Shown here in pieces: positions 53,381 through 58,676 of a stretch of DNA of 64,000 bases. The position numbers were made by a program, and so were the translations under genes. The notes below the pieces were generated by a model that saw only the letters and a program-made list of their open reading frames with translations, was not told the origin of the DNA and ran no database searches. Origin of the DNA: Lysobacterales bacterium (GTDB taxonomy: Bacteria; Pseudomonadota; Gammaproteobacteria; Xanthomonadales; SZUA-36); the NCBI GenBank assembly GCA_013001885.1, contig JABDLD010000032.1, positions 1 to 64,000 on the forward strand, given 5' to 3'. Position 1 is the stretch's first letter. Each line of letters begins with the position of its first letter.

Positions 53381-55027
53381 ATGAACCAGAATAACCTGGC
53401 GCAACAACTGCAATACGCCTTTCAGCTTTTGCAGCAAGGCCAACGTGAACAAGCTGAACAGATCGGCCGCACCTTGCTTGCGCAATATCCAAACCAGCCC
53501 GACGTTTTGAATTTTCTGGGCCAGATTGAGCAAGGCCGGCACCAATTTGAAAAAGCGCTTCGCTGTTACAAGAAGGGGCTGAAAAGCGCGCCCGGTCACT
53601 TGCAACTGCTCAATAACGCAGGGTGGATGGAAAAAGAGCTGGAAAACTTTATGCAGGCGGAAAAGCTATTCCTGAAAGCTTTAAAAGTGGACTCACGCTA
53701 CTTTTACGCGCGCCAGAACCTGGCCATTCTGTACCAGGAACAACGCAAGTTTGCCAAGGCAAAACGCCTGTATCTGGAGGTCATCCGGCAACAGCCCAAC
53801 CTCGCGGATGCATTGGCCAACTTGTCCACCATTCTCGAAAAAGAGCACCAGCTGGACGAGGCGAAGTCCTACGCCGGCCGCGCAATGGAAGTCAATCCAA
53901 ATCACCGCGTTGCCCGACTGACCCTGGCAAATATTGCAACACGCAATAATGCGTTTGAGGAAGTCATCAGGCTTTTGACTCCGTTCCTTCAGCTGCCACA
54001 GCTGCATCCGATGGACCGGGCAGTGATGGCCGGCAAGTGCGCCTACGCCTATCAGGAATTGGGTGAATACGAGGCCGCTTTCAAGCTGTACCAGAATGCA
54101 AACCAGTTGCTTTATCACCACTACGAGCCCGGCATGCGCGATCCGGGCATGATTTACTCTCCGGCTGCTTTCAGGGCAATCGAAGCGGCGATTCCCGATT
54201 TCAATTTTTCCGACGTGAAGAATGAAATAAGGGAGCCGGTCTTCTTAATCGGCTTTCCACGCTCCGGAACGACTTTGCTCGACCAGATCCTGTTTTCACA
54301 TTCTCAAATTACGGTGCTGGAAGAAAAGCCCAATCTGGTTGACGCTTTTACCGAATTTCCTGCAACCGAGCAGGGATTGAACGCACTGAAAAATGCCAGC
54401 GAGGCCAAATTGAGAAGATTGCGCAGTTCATACTGGGCAAACGTCAAACGGGAAACGGGCGCAAACAAGCTGTCCCCGATCGTTGTCGACAAACTGCCTC
54501 TCAATGTGTTCGCCCTGTTGCACATCAACAAAATTTTTCCCGGCGCTAAAATCATCGTCGCCCTTCGCGATCCAAGAGATTGCGTGTTCAGCAGTTACCA
54601 GCAAAAGTTCGGAATGAACGCGGCCATGTTCCAGATGCTGAAACTCCATACTGCCGCAGTCTTTTACGACCAAGTGATGAACATCATTATGGGGATTGAT
54701 GCTGCACAAGCGTTCTCAATGCACTTCATAAAGTATGAAGAGGTGATTAAAAATTTCCGGCGTGAAGTGCAAAGGCTGGTCGATTTTCTCGACCTGGAAT
54801 GGGAAGACAGTTTGCTCGAATACCAGGCCACCGCAAAAACCCGCGACGTGACGACCCCCAGCGCCTCGCAGGTTATTCAACCGCTGTACGCTTCTTCGAT
54901 TGGTAAGTGGAAACACTACCGGTCGTGGATCGGGGACAGTTTTGAGCCGTTGGAAAAATGGGTAGAAATGTGGGGCTATCCTGCATCGCAAATTTCCGAT
55001 TCGGGTGTTGGCCATTCCCGAATTTGA
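53381..55027 (+). CDS. TPR-containing sulfotransferase family protein
   Basis: ATG 53381 gives 548 residues. The N-terminal 250 residues are TPR repeats (for example LNFLGQIEQGRHQFEKALRCYKKGLKSAPGH). The C-terminal sulfotransferase domain begins PVFLIGFPRSGTTLLDQIL (the PAPS 5'-phosphosulfate loop), followed by VLEEKPNLVDAF and the 3'-phosphate loop region ALRDPRDCVFSSYQQKF. The core residues for PAPS binding are present. The acceptor is unknown; TPR-sulfotransferases in bacteria act on peptides, lipids or glycans by family. It is the first of three plus-strand genes with radical SAM and methyltransferase genes. Confidence 0.9.
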   Translation: MNQNNLAQQLQYAFQLLQQGQREQAEQIGRTLLAQYPNQPDVLNFLGQIEQGRHQFEKALRCYKKGLKSAPGHLQLLNNAGWMEKELENFMQAEKLFLKALKVDSRYFYARQNLAILYQEQRKFAKAKRLYLEVIRQQPNLADALANLSTILEKEHQLDEAKSYAGRAMEVNPNHRVARLTLANIATRNNAFEEVIRLLTPFLQLPQLHPMDRAVMAGKCAYAYQELGEYEAAFKLYQNANQLLYHHYEPGMRDPGMIYSPAAFRAIEAAIPDFNFSDVKNEIREPVFLIGFPRSGTTLLDQILFSHSQITVLEEKPNLVDAFTEFPATEQGLNALKNASEAKLRRLRSSYWANVKRETGANKLSPIVVDKLPLNVFALLHINKIFPGAKIIVALRDPRDCVFSSYQQKFGMNAAMFQMLKLHTAAVFYDQVMNIIMGIDAAQAFSMHFIKYEEVIKNFRREVQRLVDFLDLEWEDSLLEYQATAKTRDVTTPSASQVIQPLYASSIGKWKHYRSWIGDSFEPLEKWVEMWGYPASQISDSGVGHSRI

Positions 55028-55096
55028 AGCTGGACACCGGGAACGGCTCTCACCCACAATAGCGGCTGTTCAATCGCGCATGAATCGGAACTCGAA

Positions 55097-57676
55097 TTGA
55101 GGCAACAGTTTTTAAGGCCAAATCCTGACATCACAGTCCTGCATCGGGACGGCATAATCATGGCCGGCCAGATCTCGCGTTCTCAGCCCACGAAATTGCT
55201 GGAATACGATCTTCTGTTGCTCGAGTTGTTTGCGAACGGAGCAAAGGTAGGGGATGTTGTCAAAGAGCTCAACTATGGGGCAAGCCGGCAAGTAATTGCG
55301 GCCTTCCCGAGCGCTGAAGCCCCGAGGGCGCGGATCACGACACTGCTCCGCACACACGTGCTGATCCCGTGCCAGGATGGTTCCTCACAGTCAATTGAAT
55401 CAGAGCAGCCCGTTCAGCGGCTGCAAGATTGCACCCGGCCAATGGCACTCAATCCAGCCTGCCGGTTGCGCATCGGGGCCAATATTGCATTACAGCCAGA
55501 CGGCTCGGCGTTTCGGGTGTGGAGCGCGGAAAATCGACGTTACATAAACCTGGACCTGCGCTTGCAACTGCTTCTATTCTCCTTTCGCAAAGAGACGCCC
55601 GTCAGCCGGGTGCTCGAAGAAAAAGGCCCGCTGGCAGGCGAAGATGACTGCGGCAAGGGTATCCAGTGGCTTTACGATCTCGGCCTGCTGTACTCAATCG
55701 AGGATCGGCCGCAAATGCTGGTCAAAAAACCCGCTCAGGACAAGCCTTCTGAGTCAGGGTTTGCGTTAAGGGGTTCAGGACCTCGCTGGCAGGACCTGGA
55801 ACCGGACGGCCGAATTCCCGTTTACTTCACGCCGCATATGGAAAACCACTATCCGTTGGCCCTGGGAATGATCGCTGCGGCGATAGCAGATTTCAACGAA
55901 GGAGAATTGCTGAAAAAATTTCAGCTGTTACCCATATCGTTTCTGACTCCACAGCAATTGATTGACGGGCCACACCGAAAATTCGGCCCGGGCATCTGGC
56001 TGTTCTCTAACTACATGTGGTCGCTGGACGTCAATCTGCAGATCTCCGCCATGCTCAAAGCCAGGGATCATAACAGTCTGACCCTGCACGGAGGGCCGAG
56101 CACACCCGGCTATCCAGGCGCTTGCGCGGAGTTCATGGGAAAAAATCCTTCGGTGGACATTGCCGTGCACGGCGAGGGCGAGGTTTCAGTAGTAGAGATT
56201 CTGCAGTGCATTGAGCGTGGTCCGGACGGCCGCTTGCATTACGATGTCGAGCGTTTGAAAAAAGTGACAGGGCTGACCTTCAGAGACACTGGTCAAACCG
56301 GCCTACCGCTGGTGACCACCGAAAAACGGACGCGGCTCAAAGAACCTGACAGCGTGCCTTCCCCATACCTGACCGGCGTGTTCGATTCGTACGATGGCCG
56401 TGTCGAAGCAGCCATCATCGAATCCAACCGGGGATGCCCCTTCGGCTGCACTTTCTGTGACTGGGGATCAGCGACCCGACAGAAAGTGCGCAAGATAGGT
56501 CTTGACCGGGTCAAGCAGGAAATCGACTGGATTGGAAGGAACCGGGTTCGGGTCATCTGGATTGCGGACGCCAACTTCGGCATGTATGACCGCGACATCG
56601 AGCTGTCTGAATTCATCGTGGAAACCAAGCAAAAATACGGGTTCCCTCAAGAAGTAGTCGTCAACTACACCAAGAACACGACCCGCAGACTGCTGGAGAT
56701 CATCAAGGCTCTCTCGGCCGGAGGCATCATCAGCCAGGGCATTATTTCTATTCAGACGACGGATCCGGCCACCCTTGAAGTGATCAACCGCCGCAATATC
56801 AAGACCGAAAAATATGACGAACTGACACAGGTTTTTGCCGACTCCAACTTGCCGCTGTCCACCGACCTGATGACGGGCTTACCCGGCATTACGCCGGAAG
56901 CATTCGACCGGGACCTGCAGCGTTATTTTGACTCCGACGTTACGACCAAGGCTTACCCGACGCAATTATTGCCCAACAGCCCGATGGCAGACCCGGAGTA
57001 CATGGAGAAATACAAGATTCGGGTGGACAAGGACGGTTTCGTCATTTCCTGCCACAGCTTCAACGAGGCTGAAATGGCCGGGATGAACGCCATTTACGGG
57101 TTCTTCACCGTTGCTGACGGCTATTCCGTGCTGCGCTACGTGTTGCGCTACCTGCAGTGGGAGCACGGAATTCCGGCGCTGGAGTATTTACATCATCTGC
57201 TGGATGAAACAAATTCCCACCCGGATAAGTACCCTCTCATCACCTGGGTTGCCAGGACTTTCATGCTGGCCAAGTTCATGCCAGGCGGCTGGAAGGCTTT
57301 CTACGACCAGGTGGCAGCGTTTACGCAGGACCGTTACCAGATCGAGCGTGATCAGGCTTTCGACACGGTATTGCTGGTCAACGAACTGGCCATGCCCGAC
57401 GACAGCCTGCGTTATCCGCTGCGTCGAGACCTGCCGCATGACTTTGTTGCCTGGTTCGAAGACCATGCGCCGCGGGGCGCGTCGCAGGTGAAACGCCTGG
57501 GAACCTATCCGCCGGGTGTGTTCGAGGTGGATGATCCGCATTCGATGTCCAGCATTGACATGGATTATATTCAATACGACTCCCACCAGCTTTTTTGGGA
57601 GCTGCGCTCTTCCATTGCGCGTCCTGCATCGGTTTCGGATGTGAAGGAACTGGCGCAACGGCGTTTGGCCGGATAA
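55097..57676 (+). CDS. B12-type radical SAM protein with two PqqD-like N-terminal modules
   Basis: From TTG 55097 this is 859 residues; ATG 55160 is an alternative start but would cut the first module. Two similar modules occupy about 5-60 (RPNPDITVLHRDG, then LLLLELFANGAKVGDVVKEL) and about 120-190 (LNPACRLRIGANIAL, then LLLFSFRKETPVSRVLEEKG). Both resemble PqqD/RRE winged helices used to bind peptide leaders. A Rossmann-like B12-binding region follows at about 245-375 (NHYPLALGMIAAAI, HGGPSTPGYPGACAEFMG), without the standard DxHxxG. The radical SAM motif CPFGCTFC (Cys447, 451, 454) is followed by DWG. The natural substrate is unknown. No precursor peptide gene is seen beside it. Confidence 0.82.
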   Translation: MRQQFLRPNPDITVLHRDGIIMAGQISRSQPTKLLEYDLLLLELFANGAKVGDVVKELNYGASRQVIAAFPSAEAPRARITTLLRTHVLIPCQDGSSQSIESEQPVQRLQDCTRPMALNPACRLRIGANIALQPDGSAFRVWSAENRRYINLDLRLQLLLFSFRKETPVSRVLEEKGPLAGEDDCGKGIQWLYDLGLLYSIEDRPQMLVKKPAQDKPSESGFALRGSGPRWQDLEPDGRIPVYFTPHMENHYPLALGMIAAAIADFNEGELLKKFQLLPISFLTPQQLIDGPHRKFGPGIWLFSNYMWSLDVNLQISAMLKARDHNSLTLHGGPSTPGYPGACAEFMGKNPSVDIAVHGEGEVSVVEILQCIERGPDGRLHYDVERLKKVTGLTFRDTGQTGLPLVTTEKRTRLKEPDSVPSPYLTGVFDSYDGRVEAAIIESNRGCPFGCTFCDWGSATRQKVRKIGLDRVKQEIDWIGRNRVRVIWIADANFGMYDRDIELSEFIVETKQKYGFPQEVVVNYTKNTTRRLLEIIKALSAGGIISQGIISIQTTDPATLEVINRRNIKTEKYDELTQVFADSNLPLSTDLMTGLPGITPEAFDRDLQRYFDSDVTTKAYPTQLLPNSPMADPEYMEKYKIRVDKDGFVISCHSFNEAEMAGMNAIYGFFTVADGYSVLRYVLRYLQWEHGIPALEYLHHLLDETNSHPDKYPLITWVARTFMLAKFMPGGWKAFYDQVAAFTQDRYQIERDQAFDTVLLVNELAMPDDSLRYPLRRDLPHDFVAWFEDHAPRGASQVKRLGTYPPGVFEVDDPHSMSSIDMDYIQYDSHQLFWELRSSIARPASVSDVKELAQRRLAG

Positions 57677-57704
57677 ACGTCACTGCACAGAGGTCGAAAA
57701 GCAA

Positions 57705-58676
57705 ATGCATTCCCTGGGAAAAGACGCAATCGTTCACTGGACCGCCTATTGGCAATTCGAGTCCAAGGCCAGTGGCCCCCAACGCCCTTTATTGGACTTG
57801 ATCATAGAACCCGTATGGTTTGAATTCACCGATGTGCTGGCCGACGGCGCGAAGGTTCTGGATGTGGCAACCGGAAACGGCCCGGTTGCCCTGAGCTGCG
57901 CGCAGAGGGCTCGCGCGAACCGAAAGCGTCTGCACATTGATGCAGTAGATGCAGCTGGAATCAGCCCTCCGAACCAGCTTCCGTATTCAGACGGCCATTT
58001 GCCCACGGTGAAATTTCAAGGCGGCATCTGGCTGGAGGAATTGCCTTTTCAAAACGATGAATTCGACGGTGTCATGTCTCAGTACGGGTTTGAATATGCC
58101 GATGAGCAACAAGCCGTCGCCGAAGTCTCGCGGGTGCTGGCACCCGGCGGGCGCTTGCGGCTTGTCATTCATGCGCGCGACGGCGCCGTCTGGAAAGATA
58201 TCGGCGACCGGAACAGGAGGCTAAATGCCGTCATGGCCGACGATGGTGCGGTGAACCTGGTTCGTACCTTGGTTCAGGCCCAGCAGAAGGGCGATGCTAA
58301 ATTGTTTGAGAGTAAACTGAAGCATCTTTCCAGTGCAGTCAAAGACGCCGAAAAACTCGCTGTCGATGCGCCTCCAGACGATTCTGCGGTGTTTTATTCC
58401 AGGGAATTTCTGTACGTTTTTATGAACAGGCAGCAATACAAAATATCTGAGCTGCTGCAATCACTGGAAGACGGCTGGAAACACGCTGTCGGCACGAGTT
58501 CGCGCTATGAGCAAATGCTTCAAGTTGCAAAATCTGCTGAAGAAATGTCCGGGCTTTGCGAAAACCTAAAAGCGGCTGGGCTGGCGATTGCCGCAGTACG
58601 CCAGATTTGCGATCCGGCCAACGGGGCTCAAATCGCCTGGCAGCTGGATGCCGTAAAGCCCTCGAGCGCAGGGTAG
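57705..58676 (+). CDS. Class I SAM-dependent methyltransferase
   Basis: The 323-residue protein has the class I SAM loop VLDVATGNGPVALSCA at about 48-63, and DEFDGVMSQYGFEYADEQQAVAEVSRVLAPGGRLRLVIHARDG at about 118-160, which covers motifs post-I to III with the acidic SAM-binding end. The C-terminal 120 residues are helical and probably bind the acceptor. Start ATG 57705 is 28 bases after the radical SAM stop. The acceptor is unknown. Context suggests it methylates the product of the upstream enzymes. Confidence 0.87.
   Translation: MHSLGKDAIVHWTAYWQFESKASGPQRPLLDLIIEPVWFEFTDVLADGAKVLDVATGNGPVALSCAQRARANRKRLHIDAVDAAGISPPNQLPYSDGHLPTVKFQGGIWLEELPFQNDEFDGVMSQYGFEYADEQQAVAEVSRVLAPGGRLRLVIHARDGAVWKDIGDRNRRLNAVMADDGAVNLVRTLVQAQQKGDAKLFESKLKHLSSAVKDAEKLAVDAPPDDSAVFYSREFLYVFMNRQQYKISELLQSLEDGWKHAVGTSSRYEQMLQVAKSAEEMSGLCENLKAAGLAIAAVRQICDPANGAQIAWQLDAVKPSSAG

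Follow-up and report, generated by a model that had tools for sequence, protein, structure and literature searches.

Three consecutive genes on the forward strand of a 64,000-nucleotide stretch of a Lysobacterales bacterium genome (contig JABDLD010000032.1; the whole stretch is referred to here as the window) encode a sulfotransferase fused to tetratricopeptide repeats (TPRs), a radical S-adenosylmethionine (SAM) protein of predicted cobalamin-dependent type, and a class I SAM methyltransferase. The trio recurs in relatives as a genuine gene set and is best read as part of a larger module centred on a TonB-dependent receptor. We think it probable that the set acts on a ribosomally made polypeptide and is coupled to the receptor. 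An earlier note, made from the letters of the window alone, had described three genes of these kinds on one strand, and open reading frames (ORFs) and Pfam matches return the coordinates and domain types that it gave:

53381..55027, + strand: TPR-sulfotransferase, 548 aa, with N-terminal TPRs and a C-terminal Sulfotransfer_3 domain (Pfam).
55097..57676, + strand: predicted cobalamin-dependent radical SAM protein with tandem N-terminal modules like RiPP recognition elements (RREs; RiPP, ribosomally synthesized and post-translationally modified peptide), 859 aa, TTG start.
57705..58676, + strand: class I SAM methyltransferase, 323 aa, a divergent member of a receptor-linked methyltransferase family (Pfam, family profile).

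The genome, 3.3 Mb in 96 contigs, is 98% complete, and the window lies on its contig C69. The radical SAM gene probably starts with the TTG at 55097 or nearby: no ATG occurs in frame before codon 22, whereas alignments with most orthologues already begin at about residue 5-10 of the window protein.

To place the trio among relatives, a species-level genome collection was scanned, yielding 55 loci, to which three more genomes and the window were added (L numbers denote loci and G numbers genomes). Orthologues of the radical SAM gene occupy 46 loci (L031-L069, L072, L079, L080, L148-L150 and the window); contig ends truncate some of these, and one is split in two frames. Neighbours were counted by six-frame profile searches of the retrieved flanking DNA, at most about 10 kb in either direction. 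The neighbour profiles came from clustering and were built largely from members at the same loci; the bit scores are partly in-sample, and the presence calls are unaffected. The commonest partner, which goes beyond what the earlier note had considered, is a family of TonB-dependent receptors, found at 24 of the 46 loci (at L050 as a 112-aa fragment at a contig end). The methyltransferase family is present at 23 loci and a TPR-sulfotransferase scoring at least 400 bits at six, the window included in both counts; an S9 peptidase occurs at nine and a second sulfotransferase at four. The complete trio stands together at six loci, that is, the window and five of the 45 others (L032, L041, L059, L062 and L150), which supplies the synteny in relatives on which the earlier note had made its reading depend. 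At L059, receptor, TPR-sulfotransferase, methyltransferase, S9 peptidase and radical SAM genes follow one another on one strand with small gaps, and at L150 one strand carries, in this order, the receptor gene and then the radical SAM, sulfotransferase and methyltransferase genes, which overlap. Partial matches occurred in 22 plasmid records, none reaching 80% query coverage.

Of the 18 genomes that carry the radical SAM gene 16 were searched, and 13 of these hold a family receptor above 900 bits; the family is not clear in the window genome (354 bits), G033 (587) or G111 (511). At seven of nine methyltransferase loci (L095-L103) in genomes without a radical SAM orthologue, methyltransferase and receptor are adjacent or one ORF apart. 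The receptors align as one family: 13 of 16 share 52-63% identity with the first, one shares 45%, and two that are second receptors at the same loci share 28%. In the tree, the window protein groups with L031 and L032 (support 95/88 and 99/97), and at both of these a receptor is linked. On this tree the receptor label requires nine changes, at least seven by well-supported branches; it is more clustered than in most shuffles, as low a count having arisen in 3 of 500. The simplest reading is that linkage to the receptor was lost in the window lineage. Marinicella meishanensis (G118, L086-L091) has six paralogues of the family receptor at ~1377-1406 bits, only one of them next to a methyltransferase. 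Several of the S9 peptidase sequences have, by eye, a signal-peptide-like start.

It is very improbable that the three genes are chance neighbours with unrelated roles. Gene order does vary among genomes, and at most Marinicella and Glaciecola loci (exceptions L054 and L057) the radical SAM gene lies amid other, apparently housekeeping, genes, as chance neighbours might. However, the same three families share one locus in the six cases above, and in M. litoralis (G070) a single block, located ~200 kb away from the radical SAM gene, holds the sulfotransferases together with the receptor and the methyltransferase. The methyltransferase lies near the radical SAM gene at half of the loci (23/46), where about 1% or less would be expected (an estimate, taking ~20 kb in ~3 Mb). 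This is far above expectation because 58 of the 62 genomes with a methyltransferase match have a single one.

The N-terminus of the radical SAM protein was predicted by the earlier note to hold two PqqD-like modules, placed at residues 5-60 and 120-190. The predicted structure places two modules of RRE fold close to these bounds, ahead of the catalytic domains:

55109..55372, + strand: RRE-like module 1, residues 5-92, predicted fold (predicted local distance difference test, pLDDT, 84-97 per 10-residue block), a repeat of module 2.
55463..55696, + strand: RRE-like module 2, residues 123-200, predicted fold with a profile match to PqqD.
55814..56296, + strand: predicted cobalamin-binding domain, about residues 240-400, from the TokK/CysS alignment; the codon of W308 is 56018-56020.
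56408..57046, + strand: radical SAM core, PF04055, with Cys 447, 451 and 454 (first codon 56435-56437, last 56456-56458).
57047..57646, + strand: C-terminal domain of TokK/CysS type, residues 651-850; the structural alignment reaches about residue 840.

Folded alone from 31 sequences, the N-terminus gave a confident model (pLDDT 92, predicted template modelling score 0.88) in which one order of strands and helices is repeated twice, each module being a predicted winged helix with a small sheet and three helices. Foldseek with this model returned the cyanobactin oxidase ThcOx first (E 2.2e-4), two ThcOx chains being the only matches below 0.001; chains of PKMT2 and PKMT1 took ranks 4-5, and lasso peptide B1 proteins and PqqD ranks 7-17. 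In the VIA structural comparison of module 2, the first 12 rows (Z 8.2-10.6) are TigE, MccB, MibB, NisB and TbtB, with best Z scores of 10.6 for TigE, 10.2 for MccB, 9.9 for MibB and 9.4 for NisB. Lower rows (Z ~5.6-7.7) mix RREs with other winged helices, including those of PKMT2, MINA53, NO66 and Rv2067c. With ThcOx on top and RiPP enzymes at these Z scores, the modules do match the RRE/PqqD fold, a failure of which would have told against the earlier note.

At the profile level the two modules differ. Module 2 matches PqqD with a score of 27.7 and a probability of 77%, the best of 100 shuffled decoys reaching 14.4, so that none equals it. Module 1 does not match PqqD by profile, five of 100 decoys being equally good; it is a repeat of module 2 in the same kind of comparison, in which no decoy of 100 did as well. 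The profile check proposed in the earlier note thus bears out its claim for the second module and not for the first. The Pfam PqqD model PF05402 has no match in the radical SAM protein or elsewhere in the window genome, and PqqD is not among the 25 families listed for the 31 orthologous N-termini. The likeness to PqqD therefore appears to sit at the level of predicted fold and profile, with structure and repetition suggesting it for module 1. DUF7397, considered as a family for this region, matched weakly (E-value 0.0013 for the full protein and 0.0069 for the N-terminus alone), and other Pfam matches were at chance level. Searching the sequences of the Protein Data Bank with the N-terminal profile gave only TfuB1, a lasso B1 protein, at 0.38 and another chain at 0.74. 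Across 151 genomes, the same profile found the radical SAM gene in 18 genomes and one place in G089 (0.001). Distant radical SAM proteins (L070, L071, L073 and L075) also have long N-terminal extensions, with marginal scores to the tandem-module profile.

The rest of the protein resembles cobalamin-dependent methylases. Pfam recognises the Radical_SAM domain in it (2.8e-17), and among NCBIfam models the highest score goes to NF033712, the KedN5-type methylcobalamin radical SAM family (231.5 bits, under the curated cut-off of 700). The nearest solved structures by sequence are TokK (1.3e-58) and CysS (4.2e-51). The AlphaFold model of the whole protein (pLDDT 82) aligns with TokK (7kdx) at Z 27.2 over 562 residues, with an RMSD (root-mean-square deviation) of 4.3 Å and 24% identity, and with CysS (9n1d) at Z 24.7 over 550 residues; the next family, OxsB, reaches 18.6. 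The Pfam B12-binding match is weak (0.24). The cysteines of the CxxxCxxC motif (C447, C451 and C454) are invariant in all 33 aligned orthologues. So is W308, which falls on TokK W76 and CysS W75, residues reported to lie beneath the cobalt of cobalamin (PMC12846815). Because of the TokK/CysS fold, the invariant cluster cysteines and W308, the protein is most likely an active cobalamin-dependent methylase. In distant Gammaproteobacteria (L071:2215-6818 and L075:7210-11833), radical SAM genes of the superfamily come in consecutive pairs, one for a protein of ~640 aa and one for a protein of ~850 aa with a long N-terminal extension, and contigs from Clostridia/Oscillospiraceae (L081-L085) carry several related ~640-aa radical SAM genes side by side.

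The window sulfotransferase matches Sulfotransfer_3 at 4.9e-34, together with TPRs (Pfam). Among the best 60 of 100 matches to solved structures, and apart from TPR proteins, protein-tyrosine sulfotransferases lead (8w5z at 1.6e-11, 3ap1 at 6.3e-11), and the natural-product sulfotransferase CurM follows behind 8w5z at 1.6e-5. The similarity to protein-tyrosine sulfotransferases and the RRE fold together favour a polypeptide substrate. The methyltransferase carries class I methyltransferase domains (best Pfam 1.6e-9) and is divergent, sharing 16-27% identity with 13 family members. It reaches 141.5 bits with a family profile from which it was left out, where the other listed members score 265-441, except L052 at 53.5. 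The pairing of TPR-sulfotransferase and TonB receptor may be more general: on contig C76 of the window genome (L151:5319-12379), a further TonB receptor has a TPR-sulfotransferase on either side. The gene immediately upstream of the radical SAM gene in G111 (L148:10033-11955) encodes a TPR protein that carries a putative 2OG-Fe(II) oxygenase domain (PF13759; 2OG, 2-oxoglutarate), as though the sulfotransferase could give way to a different tailoring enzyme.

The set could alternatively tailor a small molecule, possibly pantetheine-linked as with CysS, for example a ligand that binds metal and enters through the TonB receptor; the RRE modules would then be evolutionary relics or serve dimerisation. 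We regard this as unlikely. It would agree with the small substrates of the closest solved enzymes, a carbapenam for TokK and a pantetheinylated benzoate for CysS (PMC12846815), and with the low conservation of the modules. It also has a precedent in BmdC of a nonribosomal peptide synthetase (NRPS) pathway, whose RRE-like domain was judged by its authors to be a likely relic (PMC8795117). On the other hand, the loci read showed no evident scaffold-building gene, and an NRPS condensation domain is absent from the window genome (4 of the 16 searched radical-SAM genomes score over the cut-off). In addition, most aligned orthologues keep both modules across a deep tree, and the sulfotransferase domain matches protein-tyrosine sulfotransferases better than it does CurM.

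If the substrate is a polypeptide, its gene might be sought nearby. The earlier note had seen no precursor gene adjoining the set, and indeed the intergenic gaps of the window trio contain no convincing precursor ORF. A short-ORF search, with the low-complexity filter on, covered 1300 ORFs of 22-200 aa from 62 loci, none of them more than 4 kb from a receptor, methyltransferase or radical SAM gene. Among the 25 widest groups, none recurs across the range of the radical SAM gene. The widest spans six loci in Arsukibacterium and Rheinheimera, and another spans three loci in Aliikangiella and Kangiellaceae; by eye, the widest groups are ordinary neighbours (YbaB-like, PspB-like), non-coding shadows or genus-limited ORFs, and were rejected as precursors. 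Two genus-limited ORFs may be partners of the radical SAM gene. One, hydrophobic and of 74-90 aa, directly follows a solo radical SAM gene on the same strand in the Marinicella group (L035, L037, L039, L040 and L045). The other, lipoprotein-like and of 94-119 aa, lies between the S9 and radical SAM genes in Arsukibacterium (L042:9482-9787, L043, L046, L051 and L072); it contains a TGSxI-like stretch that by eye recalls the receptor N-terminus. In G111, a 98-aa lipoprotein-like ORF resembling a TonB-receptor N-terminus (L148:11979-12275) is divergent from the TPR-2OG oxygenase and radical SAM genes. A search with it gave a strong match in G111 only, the others, at E 1.6e-5 or weaker, being mostly long receptor-size frames; in this genome, which is without the receptor family, the ORF may be a receptor remnant or a possible substrate. 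Upstream of the trio, window:52848-53183 (- strand) is a small Cys/His-rich ORF with a signal-like start, on the same strand as neighbouring RND-type (resistance-nodulation-division) efflux genes. YcaO is absent from the window genome and present in 6 of the 16 searched radical-SAM genomes, all of one genus. For the window genome, NRPS and YcaO routes (thiazole/oxazole-modified microcins, TOMMs, or cyanobactins) are unsupported, there being neither a condensation domain nor a YcaO.

From the domains, predicted folds, cofactor residues, synteny and receptor linkage we infer a substrate, reactions, an order of steps and a transport route. The trio would work in the cytoplasm, as part of a TonB-receptor module, and tailor a polypeptide made by the ribosome. 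The tandem RRE domains, going by their modelled fold, would hold a segment of the polypeptide, while the cobalamin radical SAM core, by analogy with the TokK/CysS fold and residues, would C-methylate an unactivated carbon on it. The TPR-sulfotransferase would add sulfate, most likely to Tyr in view of its protein-tyrosine sulfotransferase similarity, and the class I methyltransferase may add a further methyl group. Following the logic of methanobactin, the modified peptide would then exit the cell and re-enter through its cognate TonB receptor, to be cut by the S9 peptidase; the precursor gene would be unlinked to the tailoring set. There is precedent for a carrier peptide in TmoD, a B12 radical SAM enzyme that trimethylates a peptide-bound thioether (PMC9303977). 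The exported-peptide form ranks first among the substrate readings, at clearly less than an even chance. For the favoured explanation taken together (polypeptide tailoring, TonB receptor coupling and an unlinked precursor) we would put the chances at not quite even. The peptide- or metabolite-tailoring role proposed in the earlier note is supported in part by the RRE fold, the trio synteny and the tyrosine-sulfotransferase likeness. Its step from RRE-like modules to leader binding is less secure, because the BmdC domain, which has such a fold, is deemed a likely relic (PMC8795117), and an RRE fold alone is therefore insufficient for leader binding.

Several observations weigh against polypeptide tailoring coupled to a receptor. 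The modules are weakly conserved, with a mean column identity of 28% compared with 53% for the whole protein, and L066 seems to be without most of module 1; both could mean that the modules are relics. TokK and CysS act on small substrates and not on peptides (PMC12846815). At 22 of the 46 loci, the window's included, the fetched DNA contains no family receptor, some of these being short contigs, and the window genome has no clear orthologue of the receptor or of the S9 peptidase (best scores 354 and 298 bits). A precursor-like ORF common beyond closely related genera was not found among the 25 widest groups, and a recurrent exporter or leader peptidase was not noticed among the neighbours, no search having been aimed at either.

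The frequency of the receptor also raises another reading of the substrate, in which the full-size outer-membrane TonB receptor is itself the missing precursor, methylated and sulfated in the cytoplasm before Sec export. The tandem RREs would bind the nascent receptor, perhaps in its N-terminal region, and the modified residues would tune ligand binding or block phage or bacteriocin attack. A separate precursor, exporter and leader peptidase would then be unneeded, and the receptor is the most frequent neighbour found, largely of one family. The pairing of methyltransferase and receptor in genomes without a radical SAM orthologue and the second receptor flanked by TPR-sulfotransferases in the window genome would also fit. 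Module 2 also has structural matches, ranked after the RiPP enzymes, to winged helices of the protein-modifying PKMT2, MINA53, NO66 and Rv2067c (Z 6.5-7.2). Against this, the window genome and G111 are without the receptor family, and a clear residue signature is absent from the receptors: of 198 columns conserved in 22 receptors from radical-SAM-positive genomes, five are lost in most of seven from negative genomes, four receptors having lost their N-termini through a simple start-codon choice. Five of 198 positions are unconvincing, and the comparison does not discriminate. To our knowledge, a C-methylated or sulfated TonB receptor would be without precedent, and we give this reading a low probability.

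Either substrate would be of consequence. In the literature searched, whose coverage is without most subscription journals, the gene set is undescribed; its core chemistry and recognition fold are known, while their combination and the receptor partner are not described there. A TokK/CysS-type methylase fused to two domains of peptide-binding type would link antibiotic-type C-methylation to ribosomal polypeptides and would provide an enzyme whose target is set by a separable recognition domain. The TonB receptor, being so often the partner, points directly to the substrate, which would be either a peptide that is taken up again or the receptor. Should the receptor be the substrate, the proteins known to bear methyl groups installed by radical chemistry would come to include outer-membrane transporters, and RiPP-like machinery would be working on a whole transport protein. 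Named isolates of Marinicella, Arsukibacterium and Aliikangiella carry the radical SAM gene; Arsukibacterium, Aliikangiella coralliicola and Marinicella gelatinilytica have it in the linked set.

How does the favoured reading, polypeptide tailoring coupled to a TonB receptor, compare with known systems? With the TokK/CysS/KedN5 methylases, the window protein has in common the core fold, the CxxxCxxC motif and the Trp predicted to lie under cobalamin, but it adds ~230 N-terminal residues with two RRE-like domains, and an antibiotic-type cluster is absent around the window gene. ThcOx, the top Foldseek match, likewise has two consecutive N-terminal peptide-clamp domains, at residues 7-86 and 87-194 (PMC5108345); it is, however, a flavin mononucleotide (FMN) oxidase of a cyanobactin pathway, whereas here the domains precede a radical SAM core in a genome without YcaO. 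The Xanthomonas raxX-raxSTAB cluster produces a sulfated ribosomal peptide (PMC6637879), and the window sulfotransferase domain is similar to solved protein-tyrosine sulfotransferases. Unlike RaxST, the window enzyme is TPR-fused, and no RaxX-like precursor or exporter was seen at the window locus. The TPR-sulfotransferase/receptor stretch at L151 differs from the trio in having no radical SAM or methyltransferase gene of these families. Lasso-peptide uptake and degradation pairs consist of a TonB receptor and an isopeptidase, which recalls the receptor and S9-family peptidase here. Two S9 proteins match the AtxE2 isopeptidase model weakly, at 58.7 and 53.7 bits, but this is far under its cut-off of 400, and they match Dpp5 better (66.5 and 84.8, cut-off 900); no lasso enzymes were noticed at the loci, without an aimed search. 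The methanobactin (mbn) operons are defined by the MbnA precursor and the MbnB/MbnC core; here no precursor was recognised, and MbnB/MbnC were not searched for. At L052 a gene that is DUF692-like by eye lies ~8 kb away. The methanobactin operons are nonetheless the nearest precedent, since their peptide-tailoring genes come together with one for a TonB-dependent transporter and, in certain groups, one for a sulfotransferase (PMC3621798).

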